A stretch of DNA of 56,051 nucleotides from the NCBI GenBank assembly GCA_039680605.1, contig JBDKTA010000013.1, positions 1 to 56,051 on the forward strand, given 5' to 3'. Below, in pieces: positions 4,487 through 13,688 of this stretch; within the stretch, counting starts at the first letter, position 1, and each line of letters opens with the position of its first letter. Below the pieces are notes generated by a model. That model ran no database searches, had not been told where the DNA came from, and worked only from the letters and a program-made list of their open reading frames with translations. Source of the DNA: Planctomycetaceae bacterium (lineage in GTDB: Bacteria; Planctomycetota; Phycisphaerae; SM23-33). The translations under genes and the position numbers were made by a program.

Positions 4487-4587
4487 CGCGATCTCCTCAT
4501 GAAGGCTATTGGAAGCCACTGCAATATCCGCCCCCCGCTTTGCACGCAAGAGCAATCCATCCCCACGCTTATCCCTTCAGTTACGGG

Positions 4588-4748
4588 TGGGGGAAAAGTC
4601 GCGGCGGAGGCACTAAATGAAGAAGTAATTCGTTGTGTGAATTACTTCTTCATTTGGGGCCGTGTACCCCTGACCAGCGCAAGTATTCATCAAAGCCACA
4701 CAACGGCTTTGATAAATACTTGGTGCCTCCGCCGCGACTTTTCCCCCA
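4588..4748. repeat. 161-bp nested palindrome: outer stem plus two hairpins with complementary loops
   Basis: A perfect 26-bp outer inverted repeat (4588-4613 with 4723-4748) encloses two hairpins. Hairpin 1 is a perfect 17-bp stem (4615-4631/4639-4655) with loop GTTGTGT (4632-4638). Hairpin 2 is a 17-bp stem with one mismatch (4681-4697/4705-4721) and loop ACACAAC (4698-4704). The two 7-nt loops are exact reverse complements, so the folded strand could form a kissing-loop pair. A short GGGG/CCCC helix is possible in the linker (4656-4670). The element lies between the divergent hydrolase and metallophosphoesterase genes and fills most of that 356-bp gap. It may be a REPIN/MITE-like element or a structured RNA. 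Confidence 0.85.
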
Positions 4749-4842
4749 TGACTGAGGCATTGCTCCTGGTGGGAGCGAGTGGTTTGTTTGACAAGCCTGC
4801 GCCAATTCACTACCGTGGGGGTTTCAGCCTCAGGAGAAGAAC

Positions 4843-5802
4843 ATGCCAAACCGTCTGCATCGATGGAATCTGTTCATCATCGCCGCCGTGCTCATCGCCG
4901 CCGTGCCGCTGGCGATAGCGGCCTTTCCACCGGAGAAACCCTACGATCCGAGGCCGCTGATGCCCGAGGCCGTCAAGAAGGCCGACCCGAACAACTACAC
5001 GTTCCTGGTGCTGGGCGACACGCGCGGCAACGCCGTCTTCAAGCTGCTGATGGAAAAGGCGATGACGCACAAGCCCAGTTTCGCCCTGTTGACCGGCGAC
5101 CAGGTCCGCGATGGGCTGGACAAGGAATACGACTCGCTGGACGCGCAGTACGCCCCCTTCGCCCGCACGATGCCCGTCTGGCCGTGCTACGGCAACCACG
5201 ACGCGCGCAATCCCGCCAATTACGAAAAATTCTTCGGGATGACCGACAAGCACTACAGCTTCGACTTTCACAACGCCCGCTTCATCGGCGTCGAGTCGCT
5301 CAGCGCCGCGGCCACCATCGAAAAAGCCCAACTGGAGTGGCTGGAGAAGCAGCTCGACGAAGGCAAGAAAGCCGGAAAGCTCCTGTTCGTCTGGATGCAC
5401 GGGCCGGCCTACAGCGTTGGCGAAAAGTTCGAAATCACCAACCAGCCCTGCGATTTCACGCGGTTGTGCGTCAAGTACGGCGTGACGGCCGTCTTTGCCG
5501 GACACGACCACATCTACTACCGCACCAAGCGCGACGGCGTGACGCACATGATCCAGGGCGTCGCCGGCGCGCCGATCTATACGATCAAGCGCAAGAGCTT
5601 CGCCCAGCGTGAGGACGTCTGGTGGGGCGGCACGGGCAAGAAGCAGTGGACGCTCTACACCCCTGCCGGCGGCGAGCAGGTCATGAACATCCACATGTTC
5701 CTGTTCACGACGATCACCGTCGAAGGCGGCAAGGTTTCGGGCAAGACTCTCACGCATGACAACCAGCCCATCGACGAGTTCGTCCTGCGCGAAGGCAAGT
5801 AG
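4843..5802 (+). CDS. Secreted calcineurin-like metallophosphoesterase
   Basis: This 319-residue protein has an N-terminal signal peptide (hydrophobic residues about 9-27), so it acts outside the cytoplasm. The two-metal phosphoesterase motifs occur in order: GDTRG (58-62), GDQVRD (85-90), GNHD (117-120), a WMHGPAY His motif near 185, and AGHDH near 220. The first motif is the GDTRG variant rather than D-x-H. AGGAGA upstream of the ATG fixes the start. The substrate could be a phosphomonoester or phosphodiester; the sequence does not say. The gene is monocistronic, divergent from the hydrolase and followed by the tRNA-Gly gene. Confidence 0.88.
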   Translation: MPNRLHRWNLFIIAAVLIAAVPLAIAAFPPEKPYDPRPLMPEAVKKADPNNYTFLVLGDTRGNAVFKLLMEKAMTHKPSFALLTGDQVRDGLDKEYDSLDAQYAPFARTMPVWPCYGNHDARNPANYEKFFGMTDKHYSFDFHNARFIGVESLSAAATIEKAQLEWLEKQLDEGKKAGKLLFVWMHGPAYSVGEKFEITNQPCDFTRLCVKYGVTAVFAGHDHIYYRTKRDGVTHMIQGVAGAPIYTIKRKSFAQREDVWWGGTGKKQWTLYTPAGGEQVMNIHMFLFTTITVEGGKVSGKTLTHDNQPIDEFVLREGK

Positions 5803-6989: not shown

Positions 6990-9900
6990 ATGAGAGCCCT
7001 TACCATATGTATTGCCGCCGGGTGGGTCTGTCTGAGCCCGGCCTGGGGCGCTGCGCCGGAAGAACCGCCGCCGCCGCGGGCGATGGAACTGGTGCCCCCG
7101 CAATGGCTGGCGTTCACGCCGATCTGGCAACCGACGTGGGACGCCACGTTGGCTGCCAACCAGGCCGCCTGGAACAAGGATGTTCCGCAAGACAAGTCGC
7201 TTAACCAGGCCCACGGCCAGATCGTCAACCTCCGCCTGATCGAGCTGTACCGGGCGATGATCCAGCACTTTCCCGCCGAGACGGCCAAGCACCTCGACGC
7301 GCGGCGCGGCATCGCGCAAGCGTATCGCAACCTCGGCGACCTGCCGCGGGCGAATGAGGCGTACCGGGAAATGATCGCGGCGCACCGGGACCGCAAGGAG
7401 ATCGCGGCTGAAGCTTACCAGCAGATCCTCGCCCACACGCCGACGTATGTGCCCAATCAATACGCCGGCGCAGGGGCGTGGCAGGCGTACGCCCTGAAGG
7501 GGCTCGAGTCGCTTCGCGGGAGTCTGCCCGAGACGCACCCGGCGATGAGCTTCTACTGGCAGCATCGCATGAGGATGCTGGTCGAGAACCGCGACTACGA
7601 ACAGGCGCTGCACTTTTACGAGCAGAACGCCTCGCGAGGCGGCGCCGATCAGAACTGGAACCTGACGCGGGCGACGCTGCTGCAGGCGGCGGGGCATGCG
7701 TCACTGGCGGCAGACGTCTGGCAGGCGCAAGGCAACCCCGACCAGGCGGCGAACCTGCGCAGCTCGATCACGTCGCTGGTGCAAGACTACCCGCGCGACG
7801 TCGAGCTGGAGATGCGCTGGGAGGCGCTGCGCCGGGAGGCGGCCGGCGGGGCGGCCTTCGACGCCGCGTCGCTTCAGAACATCCTGGACATGTGCGACTC
7901 AACCGGTGCGTTCCCGGCAGTCAAAGAGCCGCCCTATCTTCCGTATCGGCGCGTGATCGAGCGGACATTGCTGGGCTCGCCGCCGGAGGCCCTGGAGGGT
8001 TTGCGACAGCGGCAGCGCATGGCGGCGGCCACCGCCGCGGCGGCGGTCGCGGCCAGCGGCAACCTCGACGACGCCGTGCGGCTCTTCCGCCGGTACTCCT
8101 GGGCCGCCAACGTCCACGAGGTGATGTTTACTCTGGCCGAGGACGCCCTGCGGCGTGGGCGGCGCGACTGGGCGCTGCGGACATTCGAGGACCTGACGCA
8201 ATTCGCCGCCGACGGCGAGCTTCGCCGCGCCGCTCACGTGGGCGTGTGGCTGTGCCTGTCCGGCGAGGGCGACTCGCGCGAGGCCCTGCAGCGGGCGATG
8301 GCGGCCGTCCCCGACTCGACAGATCTGCCCTGGCGCGGCGGCAGGGCGTCGGCGGCGGCGGTGAAGAAGACGCTCGTGACCGCCGCGGGGTCTGCGGCGC
8401 CGGACAAACCGTTCTCGGCCGTCGCGCGGCGGCGTGTCGAGATGCCTGCCGACCAGGCCTGGGCGGAGAACTTCTACGAGAGCTCGACGCTTGCGGCGAC
8501 GCTGGGGCCATGGGCGATCACGACCATCGAGCCCCTGGGCGGTCCGGGCGCGCCGCTGCTGATCAGCGGACCGACGCTGGCGGCCCGTTACGACGCGGCG
8601 GTGCCTCGCGCTGTCTGGACGCGAAGCGCGCCTCCGGGATACGGCGCCCGCCGCGCCATCAGCCCAGTGCAACCGGCCTGGGCCCTGCCCGCGCGGCGAG
8701 CGCCGGCCCTGCGAAGCAAAGTCGCCGACGAAGCGTGCCTGTTCGCCCTGGTTGACGACAACCCTGACCCCGCCGCACGCAAGGCCCTAGCCGCATTCGA
8801 CGCCGCCAGCGGCGACCTGATCTGGTCCACCGCCAACCGCCCCGAGTGGGCCGACCTTCAGCCCCTCAACGCCCCCATGGCCGCCGCCGGCCACGTCTAC
8901 ACCCTGGCCATGCCCGCCGGCGCCATGGAGCCTCAGCAGCAGACGGCCGTAACCGTCTGGCTGACGTGCCTTGACGCCGGCGACGGACGCATGATCTGGA
9001 AGAAGTCGCTGGCCGCCCAGGCTCAAGCGAACACGCGCCTGGTGGAACTGGCCCAGCAAGGCCAGGCCCTCACGCTCGATGGCGGGTGGCTGTACTGCTC
9101 GACGAACTTCGGCATCGTCGCCCGCTGCGACGCCCGCGACGGGACCATCGACTGGATCTGGACCTACCCTCCGGCCGACCAGTCCGGGCGGAGCCTGGTG
9201 CAATTCCGCCGCCAGGGCGCCAGCCCGATTGTGGCGGGGCAGAGGCTGATCCTGGCCCCGCGCGACCACAGCGGCGTCATCGCCCTGGACGCCGCCGATG
9301 GAAAGCTACTCTGGCAAAGCGTGCTGACGGCGTCGGAGCACATCGTCTGCGTCGCCGGCGGCAAGGTCATCGCTCGCAACGACGTCGAAATCAGCTCGCT
9401 GGATCTCGCCACGGGCCGCGAACTCTGGTTCCGCCGCTACGACGCGCCGATCGACCAGACACTCGCCCGCGGGGCGGACATCCTGATGCTCTCGGGCGGC
9501 GCGCTGTGCCGCCTCTCGCCGGCGGACGGGTCGGTTGTCGAGAAACGTCCGCTCGAGGGCAACGCCGTGCCGTTCCTGCTCGACGGCGCCACGGTGCTTG
9601 AGTTTGTGCCCGCCCCGGCGGCGCCGGTGGCGACGCCCGGCGCCCCGCCGGCCAGCCCGCTGAAATTGCCGCTGACGCGCGCGTGGTCGCTGCCGGCCGC
9701 CTGCCCGATACTCGTCTGCCCGCCAGCCGCGCAGCCACAGGAGACCTTCTTCGTACTGTCAGGGCGCACGGTAACCTGCATCAAACGCAAACCCTCCCCC
9801 ACCGTGCTGTGGCAGCAGACCCTGGCGATGCGACCCAGCGCCGCCTGCTACGCCGGAACCGCCCTGCTGCTGGCCGACGGGCGGGATCTCGTGGCGGTCG

Positions 9901-12900
9901 ATCTGGCCGGCGGGGCCGTGCGATGGACGGCGCGGCCGGGCTTTGCCGTCGACTACTTCGACGGCGGCGGCGACGTGGCGATGGCGGCCGAGACGTCGCG
10001 CAGCGGTTTCGTCGCGGTCTACGATCTGGCGACAGGCAAGGAACTGTGGCAGAAGGATTTCGGCGAACCGGCGCGGTTCTGCGGGCAACCGCTGCGCCTG
10101 GCCCGCGTGCGCAGCGAAGACAGCGGCGCGCTGACGCTGGGTCTGTACTGGAACGCGATGCTCCACAGCGACATCGGGTTCCGCCCCGCTGAGATGATCG
10201 TCGACGCCCACAGCGGGCGCGTGATGGAGGTCCGCCACTTTCTGCCCACGCAGGGCGGTTGGCCGCGCCTGGTCGACTTCGGCCCGTGCGGCATCTTCTA
10301 CGTCGACCAGCAGTCCCGCCCGCGCCTGGCGACATACGCCGGGGCCGACCCTCTGGCCGCGACAAAGCGAATCGTCGACCTTGGACCGATCGGTCGTTAC
10401 GGCGCCGCCGCGGCGGGCATGAGCGCCACGGCCTCGAGCGTGTACGTCCGTTCCCCGCGCGAGCTGGTCGGGTTCGACGCCGCCTCGGGGCGCGAGACGG
10501 TCTATCCACTGCCGCGCAGCGGCGCGACCGGGCGGATCTCGCTTGTCTACGCGGTGCGTGAGACAGCCGGGCGGTTAATGGTGGTCTCGGGCCTGCGCGG
10601 GCAATCGAGCGATTACCCGCTGGACGCCAGCGGCGTGTTCGTCGACGCCTTCGACCGCGCCTCCGGCGCGCACGCGGGGGGGCAGGAACTGCCCGGCATC
10701 GAGTGCGATGAGTTCCAGCGCATCGGGCACGACACGCAGGCCGAGCTGCTCGACGACTCGCTCATCGTCAGCACGCGCAGCGGCGTACACGTGTTCGTGC
10801 CCGCCCCAGCCGCGGCGCCGGCGGAGATCGTGCTCCATCGCAGCGACTGGCCGATGGCTATCGACGGCGACTTATCGGACTGGAACACAGTAGCTCCCCT
10901 GCCCATGACCGGCGGCGCCGGTGGGTCGGTTCGGATCGCTCACGACAATGGCCGTCTCCTGCTGTGCATCGCCCACGAGGGTCTGCGGCGCACCGCCCTG
11001 CAAGGGGCCGGAATGTTCAACGGCGGCGACCGCCTCGATGTGTCGCTGCAATGGGCGGGGCAAAAGTACCGCTGGCTCATCGGCGCCGACGCGACGGGGC
11101 GGGCGGTGGCCCGCGACGGCCAAGGGCGGCTCGCATCGGACGTGGTGGTCGCCCGCGCCGGCGCGGCGTACGAGATGGCGATCCCGCTGGCGCCGATGGA
11201 TGCCCTCGGCGAGAGCCCCCAACGCATCGGACTGTCCGTGACGGTTGGCGGCGCCGGGGGCATGCTGACCTGGTGCGGTCCTAACGGTTCGCTACAGCCG
11301 GTGGCGCTGCACCCGCTGGCCCGCGGAAGCGAAACGGCGGCGCAGGAGATCGCCAAGGCCCTGGGCCCGCTGGCGCGCTGGCCCGCGCGCCCGGCGCGAA
11401 CCGCCGGCGGGCGGTTCCTCTCGCAGTGGGTCTGTATCGCCTCGGGCCCGCGCCCGACGTCGCTGGCGGTGGGCATCCTCGCCGGCGGACAGTGGCGCTA
11501 CGCCAGCCTGCACGACCCTCTCGTCGCGCAGGCCCCGCCGCTTTGGACCCAGCGGAGTTTCCTGCCCTGGTGGATCGCCCCGGTGCCCATCCAGGGACAA
11601 TGGATCGAGCTTCGCCTGCCGCTGACGGCACTGGACGTTGATGACAAGCCCATCGATGGTCTTGCCTTCCGCCAGGAGGGGCCCGGACGCGTGATCTGGG
11701 ACAGCACCGCCGTCGTCTGGCCCGGCGGCTCGCGAGTCATTCTCGAAGACGATCTTCCGCCCGGCATGTCCGAGGGGCAGTGGAACTGGGCCGCCGATCT
11801 CAAACACAGCGGCGCCAAGGCGCACGAAGGCGTGGCCACGCAGGCCCTCGACCAGGTGCAGACGCATTCGGTGGTGTTCACGTCGCCCGTGGCCGATCAC
11901 CTCGCCGCCGCGCCGCGCCCTGCGGTTCTGTCGCAGTGGGTCTATGTCGATCCCACGCGCCCCCCGGCGGAACTGGCCCTGCAGCTCAACAACGGGCGGA
12001 CGTGGCATCGTTTCCTCTGGGGCGGCGATGAAACCGGCAGGCGGCCTATGCCCGCAGCCGGAGCCTGGCACGAACTGCAGGTGCGGCTGGACCAGAGCGA
12101 CCTGTCCAACCGCCCCATCACGGGTATCGCGTTCGACCAGACCGACGGCCGAGTGTTCTGGGGCGCCACAACGCTGTTGGTCGACGGCAAGAGCTACCCG
12201 GTGGTGACTGACGCCGCGCCGCCGACAGCAGCGCCGGGCGGCGCCTGGCGCGCGGGCCGCTGTGAGATCATCGGCGGCGTGGCGCCGGTGGAAGGCAAAA
12301 ACGGCAAGGGCGGGCAGTTCGACGGGCGAACCGGCTGCATCGTCACGCCGCACTCGGCGGCGCTGCATCCGGCGCAGTTGAGCATCGAGGGCTGGGTGCG
12401 GCTCGAGCCCTCGACAGCCGATCAACAGTGGCTCGTCAGCACGAGCGAGGGGTCGGACGATTCTCAGGGGTACGACCTGGCGGTGATTGACGGCCGTCTT
12501 CGCGCGCGGGTATTCATGCCCGGCGCCGCGCCGCCGGCGGTGGCGACCTCGGCCGAGGCGGTGCTGCAGGCGCGGCGCTGGCAGCACGTGGCAATGACGT
12601 GGGACGGCTCGGCGGTCCGCATCTATGTGGACGGCCAGCCGGTCAAGACAGCCGTCTCGGCGGCCCCGCCCGCCGCGCCGCGGACGATGGGCCCGACGCC
12701 GCTGTTCATCGGGCGGCGCGCTTCGACCAAGGAGGGCTACTTGTCCGCGTGCCTGGACGAATGGCGCCTGTACGAGCGGGCGCTGTCGCCGGCCGGCGTG
12801 CGGAGCCTCTACGAGAACCCGGCTCGCCCGCTGCCACGGGCACTGAGACAGGCAATGGTGATAGAGTGGACGTTCGACGACATCCTGGCCGCCCCGGCCC

Positions 12901-13688
12901 AGGCCCAGTGGCAGTGGCTCACGCAGGCGGGGCGCAAGGCGCACACGCTCACGGCGGGCGCCGGCGGATCGGTGCATATGGCTGACGCGCTGGTGACGCC
13001 GATCACGCAGCATTTGTTTATCGACCGCGCGGCGGCGGTCGCCACGCTAGCCAGGAACCTGCCCGCCCTGCGCGGCGGGCCCAGGGCGAGGCAGCTTGAG
13101 GATTTGCTCGATCGTCTCGAGGGCGGCGCACCGCGGCGCCGGCCGATCGCTGGAGAGCCCGGCGCCGTCCTGAGGGACTGGCAGATCGTCGGGGGATTCC
13201 ATAATAATCCCGCCAATCACAGCGGCTTTGGGCAGCTTTGGGAACCGGAGCTCAAGGCGGTTGACCTGCAGGAGCGTTACGGCGTCTGGCCGGGCGAGGG
13301 AGGCCCTGCGCAGTGGCGGCTGCTGCGGTCGCGCGGGGCTTATGTCGACCTGCTGGGCGAGACGTCATTCCACCAGATGGTCTGCGCGGTGGCGGTTTGC
13401 TGGGTGTACGTTCCCCAGCCGCGGCACGTGCGGTTCGACGTCGGCTGCGACGAGAGCATCGACGTGCGCGTCAACCGCCGCCTGGTGCATATGGTCCGCG
13501 GCAGCGCCGCCGCCAAGCCCGGCGACACCGCCGCCGACGCGATGCTGCCTGCAGGCTGGAGCGAGATCATGATCAAGGTCGGCCAGGGCACCGGGACGGC
13601 GTTTGGATTCTACTTCGAGATCCGCGACGCCCTCAGCGGCGAGGCGGTCGAAGGCCTCGAACGGGCGACCCAGGCGCCGCAGGAATAA
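6990..13688 (+). CDS. Giant secreted TPR / PQQ-propeller / CBM9-like / LamG-like protein
   Basis: This 2232-residue protein has a cleavable signal peptide (residues 1-20, ending AWG-AA). Rough domain order: TPR-like helices (about 70-500); a PQQ/BamB-type beta-propeller (about 550-1270) with repeated ALDAADGKLLW, SLDLATGRELWF and YDLATGKELWQK blades; a CBM9/DOMON-like domain opening with AIDGDLSDW (about 1282-1420); beta-rich repeats; a concanavalin-A/LamG-like domain with SIEGWVRL and WQHVAMTWDG (about 1750-1945); and a C-terminal jelly-roll-like region. There is no enzymatic signature. It is probably a periplasmic or surface scaffold that binds glycans or proteins. It stops 2 nt before the next giant gene, so the two form an operon. 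Confidence 0.8.
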   Translation: MRALTICIAAGWVCLSPAWGAAPEEPPPPRAMELVPPQWLAFTPIWQPTWDATLAANQAAWNKDVPQDKSLNQAHGQIVNLRLIELYRAMIQHFPAETAKHLDARRGIAQAYRNLGDLPRANEAYREMIAAHRDRKEIAAEAYQQILAHTPTYVPNQYAGAGAWQAYALKGLESLRGSLPETHPAMSFYWQHRMRMLVENRDYEQALHFYEQNASRGGADQNWNLTRATLLQAAGHASLAADVWQAQGNPDQAANLRSSITSLVQDYPRDVELEMRWEALRREAAGGAAFDAASLQNILDMCDSTGAFPAVKEPPYLPYRRVIERTLLGSPPEALEGLRQRQRMAAATAAAAVAASGNLDDAVRLFRRYSWAANVHEVMFTLAEDALRRGRRDWALRTFEDLTQFAADGELRRAAHVGVWLCLSGEGDSREALQRAMAAVPDSTDLPWRGGRASAAAVKKTLVTAAGSAAPDKPFSAVARRRVEMPADQAWAENFYESSTLAATLGPWAITTIEPLGGPGAPLLISGPTLAARYDAAVPRAVWTRSAPPGYGARRAISPVQPAWALPARRAPALRSKVADEACLFALVDDNPDPAARKALAAFDAASGDLIWSTANRPEWADLQPLNAPMAAAGHVYTLAMPAGAMEPQQQTAVTVWLTCLDAGDGRMIWKKSLAAQAQANTRLVELAQQGQALTLDGGWLYCSTNFGIVARCDARDGTIDWIWTYPPADQSGRSLVQFRRQGASPIVAGQRLILAPRDHSGVIALDAADGKLLWQSVLTASEHIVCVAGGKVIARNDVEISSLDLATGRELWFRRYDAPIDQTLARGADILMLSGGALCRLSPADGSVVEKRPLEGNAVPFLLDGATVLEFVPAPAAPVATPGAPPASPLKLPLTRAWSLPAACPILVCPPAAQPQETFFVLSGRTVTCIKRKPSPTVLWQQTLAMRPSAACYAGTALLLADGRDLVAVDLAGGAVRWTARPGFAVDYFDGGGDVAMAAETSRSGFVAVYDLATGKELWQKDFGEPARFCGQPLRLARVRSEDSGALTLGLYWNAMLHSDIGFRPAEMIVDAHSGRVMEVRHFLPTQGGWPRLVDFGPCGIFYVDQQSRPRLATYAGADPLAATKRIVDLGPIGRYGAAAAGMSATASSVYVRSPRELVGFDAASGRETVYPLPRSGATGRISLVYAVRETAGRLMVVSGLRGQSSDYPLDASGVFVDAFDRASGAHAGGQELPGIECDEFQRIGHDTQAELLDDSLIVSTRSGVHVFVPAPAAAPAEIVLHRSDWPMAIDGDLSDWNTVAPLPMTGGAGGSVRIAHDNGRLLLCIAHEGLRRTALQGAGMFNGGDRLDVSLQWAGQKYRWLIGADATGRAVARDGQGRLASDVVVARAGAAYEMAIPLAPMDALGESPQRIGLSVTVGGAGGMLTWCGPNGSLQPVALHPLARGSETAAQEIAKALGPLARWPARPARTAGGRFLSQWVCIASGPRPTSLAVGILAGGQWRYASLHDPLVAQAPPLWTQRSFLPWWIAPVPIQGQWIELRLPLTALDVDDKPIDGLAFRQEGPGRVIWDSTAVVWPGGSRVILEDDLPPGMSEGQWNWAADLKHSGAKAHEGVATQALDQVQTHSVVFTSPVADHLAAAPRPAVLSQWVYVDPTRPPAELALQLNNGRTWHRFLWGGDETGRRPMPAAGAWHELQVRLDQSDLSNRPITGIAFDQTDGRVFWGATTLLVDGKSYPVVTDAAPPTAAPGGAWRAGRCEIIGGVAPVEGKNGKGGQFDGRTGCIVTPHSAALHPAQLSIEGWVRLEPSTADQQWLVSTSEGSDDSQGYDLAVIDGRLRARVFMPGAAPPAVATSAEAVLQARRWQHVAMTWDGSAVRIYVDGQPVKTAVSAAPPAAPRTMGPTPLFIGRRASTKEGYLSACLDEWRLYERALSPAGVRSLYENPARPLPRALRQAMVIEWTFDDILAAPAQAQWQWLTQAGRKAHTLTAGAGGSVHMADALVTPITQHLFIDRAAAVATLARNLPALRGGPRARQLEDLLDRLEGGAPRRRPIAGEPGAVLRDWQIVGGFHNNPANHSGFGQLWEPELKAVDLQERYGVWPGEGGPAQWRLLRSRGAYVDLLGETSFHQMVCAVAVCWVYVPQPRHVRFDVGCDESIDVRVNRRLVHMVRGSAAAKPGDTAADAMLPAGWSEIMIKVGQGTGTAFGFYFEIRDALSGEAVEGLERATQAPQE

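Follow-up and report, generated by a model that had tools for sequence, protein, structure and literature searches.

The palindrome at positions 4588–4748 of the window (the whole stretch of 56,051 nucleotides analyzed here, from a Planctomycetaceae bacterium) is best read as one copy of a MITE-like element with IS66-type ends and a branched palindromic body, putatively mobilized in trans by an IS66-type transposase, a reading to which we assign a probability of about 0.68. Short, non-coding and repeated, the element occurs in about 39 copies in the window's genome (G000), about 40 in a genome of a second genus (G023) and about 30 in one of a third (G005), all belonging to one family. A non-autonomous mobile element (MITE) was among the possibilities raised by the initial annotation, and the many dispersed copies, IS-like terminal repeats and 8-bp duplications described below bear it out.

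The window copy is a real palindrome, as first described except for one mismatch. The left arm of the outer stem (4588–4613; all features are given on the plus strand) pairs perfectly over 26 bp with the right arm (4723–4748), as annotated, and has at its 3′ end the motif GRCAC, common to all relatives. Hairpin H1 (4615–4655), found in three genera, is a perfect 17-bp stem (4615–4631 with 4639–4655) closed by the loop GTTGTGT (4632–4638). Hairpin H2 (4681–4721), found in two genera and also annotated as a 17-bp stem (4681–4697 with 4705–4721, loop ACACAAC at 4698–4704), is paired at only 16 of 17 positions, with a C-A mismatch where TTCATC lies opposite GATAAA. A variable linker (4656–4680) separates the two hairpins. 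The predicted fold has an MFE of −117.5, versus −57.5 ± 4.6 for shuffled sequences (z −12.9; 0/200 shuffles as good). The element outruns the palindrome on both sides, where degraded terminal repeats lie at approximately 4569–4584 (tTATCCCTTCAGTTAC, consensus GTATCCCCTCAGTTAC; a pattern match with 1 mismatch, tip score p 0.001) and 4749–4763 (TGACTGAGGCATTGC, consensus GTGACTGAGGCATTAC; tip score p 0.002). With both tips degraded and no target duplication left, this copy is not among the freshest. It sits in a divergent intergenic space. On one side is a dienelactone-hydrolase-like gene on the minus strand, which extends as far as approximately 4513; on the other, a gene for a calcineurin-like phosphoesterase starts at 4843 on the plus strand. 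An open reading frame of 2232 codons (6990–13688) adjoins the region.

A genome search of G000 returned about 39 (35–40) sites with the element or part of it, at 72–99% identity, and both hairpins are present in 33 of them. The copies are dispersed and mostly intergenic; by gene calls from a simple codon-usage script, which are approximate, of 36 intergenic contexts 18 are divergent and 4 convergent; in the 14 that are codirectional, the copy points in the gene direction in 8 cases and opposite to it in 6, so that orientation is not fixed. Among 31 complete copies, the mean difference is 2.3–2.5% in the outer arms (2.3% in the left arm), 5–7% in the H1 stem and 7% in the H2 stem, versus 27–28% in the loops and 43% in the linker. 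Paired parts are thus held and unpaired parts are not.

Complete copies start with GTA(A)...CTCAG or GTAAC..TTCA and finish with ..TAC. Target duplications were read just outside GTA...TAC, which defines their length as 8 bp. In G023, the tips GTAAC..TTCA and GTAAGAGTTCA (tip sequences include GTAACCGTTCAGCCCTTTGCAAC, GTAACTATTCACCC and GTAAGAGTTCAGCC) are both present in 24 of 30 copies, and the 27 measurable copies include 6 perfect duplications, 8 matching at 7/8 positions and 6 at 6/8. Of 31 complete copies in G000, 10 have both tips (GTATCCCCTCAGTTAC and GTAATGCCTCAGTCAC), 11 have a single one and 10 have none; four copies carry perfect 8-bp duplications (L021, GCGTCTGC; L035, GTCAGGGG; L039, CGTTTGGC; L048, GCCACGGG). 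The linkers of tip-bearing copies are at a distance of 0.11, versus 0.23 for tipless copies (p 0.07), and the stems at 0.009 versus 0.031. These distances suggest that tipless copies are older on average; some of them (L027, L029 and L031) look young, with near-consensus linkers. Terminal repeats with a duplication are therefore a property of G023 and of the younger G000 copies, and neither such tips nor a duplication at any offset was found in G005.

Beyond the window's genome, a DNA query against 60 relatives matched only G023 (DAOVFI01, a Planctomycetales MAG), which gives about 45 matches to its own version of the element, for about 40 copies with the same architecture and different arm sequences. 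In a scan of 397 genomes of the class with a covariance model built from G000 and G023, the element was confined to this one family; the scan added G005, whose copies have the arms and H1 and lack H2. The three-way junction is consequently not universal. The arms are almost wholly different across the three genomes (AAAGTCGCGGCGGAGGCAC, AAAGAGCAAGTCAGGCACAC and GGGAAAAACCTCCGGCGGGGACAC); all close alike, with GRCAC followed by H1, which is clearly related in the three. H2 is related between G000 and G023. Weak covariance-model matches in a further genome, G022 (L263, L267), were simple long hairpins sharing none of the motifs, and were dropped.

The link to IS66 is built on the ends. GTAA-type ends together with an 8-bp duplication are the marks expected of an element mobilized by IS66, and both were found. 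Transposase genes of this family are present in 22 of the 60 relatives, and the single-ORF IS66 elements of related genomes end in GTAACTGTTCAGCC (8-bp duplication GTTTTACT), GTAACTCTTCAGCCGTCTGCAAC, GTAACATTTCACCC and GTAACCGTTCACGG; those with a clear boundary are close to the G023 tips (GTAACCGTTCAGCCCTTTGCAAC). One such element (L239, G036:C361) is complete, 1563 bp long, with 18-bp identical ends and the duplication GTTTTACT. ISDge4, of the ISBst12 subgroup of the IS66 family, has the ends GTGACTACTCAGCA / GTAACTGCTCAGCA and an 8-bp repeat (PMC12898284); its end GTAACTGCTCAGCA compares with GTAAYGCCTCAG in the present element. Ends of the form GTAAN3YTCAG and the 8-bp target duplication are shared with this subgroup, whereas the absence of a transposase and the 160-bp palindromic body with conserved hairpins are not. 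Several observations count against the IS66 reading: the likeness of the G000 tips to ISBst12-type ends is short, G005 has no tips or duplications, only 10 of 31 complete G000 copies are two-tipped, and a simple MITE needs no maintained internal hairpins. Moreover, no PF03050 gene that could serve as the autonomous partner in the same genome was found in G000 or G023, and ends that match were seen only in the IS66 elements of related genomes; for this reason we file the element as MITE-like, with an inferred partner. The gene may have been lost, or may be missing from incomplete assemblies, both being drafts.

The mechanism that we propose would involve an IS66-family (ISBst12-type) DDE transposase acting in trans, which would recognize the tips, make the cuts and insert the element, duplicating 8 bp of the target. 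Multiplication of source copies might depend on the inner stems, for instance as protein-binding or replication-stalling hairpins, and so keep them intact; alternatively, the palindromes could be repaired by template switching. The matching loops would be a secondary trait of one subfamily.

Compensatory change, for which the initial annotation proposed a check, is observed in the stems and shows that the helices are maintained. An alignment of 40 sequences from G000 and G023 is paired in 97.4% of its cells, and both sides have changed in 15 of 47 pairs; the covariation score is 0.248, versus 0.106 for shuffles and at most 0.098 for slid alignments. Most of the outer-arm changes reflect a single contrast between G000 and G023 and hence count as few events. 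Independent compensatory changes within G000 were found at the arm pair 6/156 and at the H1 pairs 29/58 and 33/54. In G005, H1 positions 11–14 each show two to four Watson-Crick pair types and are 93–100% paired in 27 rows, which include L308 in both directions, a single palindromic place. Either selection or template-switch repair of palindromes may account for this upkeep.

The loops behave differently from the stems. The initial annotation rightly noted that the two 7-nt loops of the window copy are exact reverse complements, and from this it predicted a kissing interaction. The exact GTTGTGT/ACACAAC match is seen strictly in 8 of 33 copies and in about 12 when G-U wobbles are counted; about 20 of 33 copies have at least one mismatch in the loop pair. 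Copies lacking paired loops had been named at the outset as grounds for giving up the idea, and many copies are of this kind. G023 loops share runs of only 3 nt, no better than shuffles, and G005 lacks H2. Loop 1 in G005 and G023 is typically ATCTTCT, to which the nearest G000 form is GTTTTCT, carried by another subfamily, so GTTGTGT looks derived. An interaction that is real and selected in the main G000 subfamily would fit the exact 7-nt match there, this subfamily being the most numerous, and would also fit loop pair 46/114, which in another subfamily has changed from GC to UA (covariation score 0.187; 0/500 shuffles). This change is, however, one possible event among related copies, in a subfamily that breaks the pair 43/118; the loops also vary by 27–28%, and the full pairing is absent from the other genera. 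Complementarity conserved by compensation was not found beyond this one subfamily. We therefore regard such selection as most improbable and a kissing loop as an unlikely feature of the family; the exact loop match is probably secondary.

Two further explanations concern how, and whether, the element moves. It resembles REP and REPIN sequences with their RAYT partners (PMC3116915, PMC3733652) in being palindromic and intergenic, with conserved stems and a variable spacer, and single-strand transposition of that type had been suggested initially. The REPIN/RAYT reading was rejected. REP sequences are defined by a GTAG/CGTC foot (PMC3733652), which is absent here, the ends being GGGAAAA or GTAA; the present element also differs in its two unlike hairpins, its terminal repeats and the target duplications of its tip-bearing copies. 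Y1 transposase genes are present in all three genomes, but no element was found by the model and short motifs in 80 kb around 30 Y1 loci, and the association with a REP-family transposase gene that the initial annotation proposed to look for was not found there. A broader version of the idea takes the core GGGAAAA...TTTTCCC (GGGAAAA, arm, GRCAC and H1) as an independently mobile unit that travels as folded single-stranded DNA through the action of an HUH/Y1-like enzyme. Such a unit would need its folded hairpins and insert without target duplication, its arms would co-evolve with a lineage-specific enzyme, and it would have been captured between IS66-type ends later, in two genera. The uniform ends of the G005 copies at CAGGGAAAA / TTTTCCCGGTCGG, which lack a duplication at any offset, argue for this reading, as do the tipless G000 copies, in which similarity often breaks off at this GGGG boundary, the conserved helices with free loops, and the presence of Y1 genes. 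Against it stand the Y1 surroundings devoid of elements, the perfect target duplications that accompany tips in two genera, and the loss of tips with age; on balance we consider it unlikely.

Dispersal and retention for an effect on neighboring genes, as a structured RNA or a cis-regulatory sequence (terminator, attenuator or antisense), would explain the strong stem covariation and the very stable fold. The copies nevertheless vary in their orientation and position with respect to genes, only 4 of 36 being convergent, and for this lack of pattern a terminator or other cis-regulator was rejected; arms that differ per genome and target duplications also speak against such a role. Rfam covariance models gave no match, in agreement with the initial annotation, which had recognized no known RNA family. 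An RNA or regulatory function thus appears very improbable, and the MITE-like reading with IS66-type ends is retained.

Of other known elements, the double-hairpin elements of fungal mitochondria may be comparable, as they consist of two hairpins and a linker, have variable loops and are dispersed; the present element is, in contrast, bacterial, and long inverted arms and IS-like tips surround it. MITEAba12 (PMC6382973) is likewise short, non-autonomous and present in many copies, with IS-shared terminal repeats and target duplications, whereas the body described here forms a branched palindrome whose stems covary and whose arms are replaced wholesale from genus to genus. The element offers a clear case of a MITE in which the interior, and not the ends alone, is preserved in three genera through compensatory change while the arm sequence is exchanged. 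It makes testable whether folded DNA or RNA aids the spread of a MITE, or whether template-switch repair of palindromes mimics selection. It also cautions that complementary loops in a single copy are a poor basis for inferring function.

Several related structures were seen during the survey. In G023, two copies (L137 and L139, contigs C740 and C161) have an inverted repeat that continues into the host flank near the contig start; they were left out as contig-end fold-backs, probably assembly artifacts at the palindrome. The G023 loci L135 and L138–L163 carry further palindromes (e.g., CCTGCCTGCCGGCAGGCAGG, CGGGCTACG..) within the H1 loop, at or beside the same point, and also in the linker, so that the nested hairpins reach 381 bp. 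In G000, a different element made of four GC-rich palindromes (L099, G000:C25, about 94098–94242) lies between the same tips (CCTCAGTTAT ... GTAACTGAGGCATT), and the tips thus carry more than one interior. Four short G023 elements (L223, L225, L226 and L227) have the ends GTAACCGTTCAGGC around palindromic interiors of another kind (GGCCCCCGCTTTAGCGGGGGCC) and would make up a second group of MITEs whose ends are of IS66 type.
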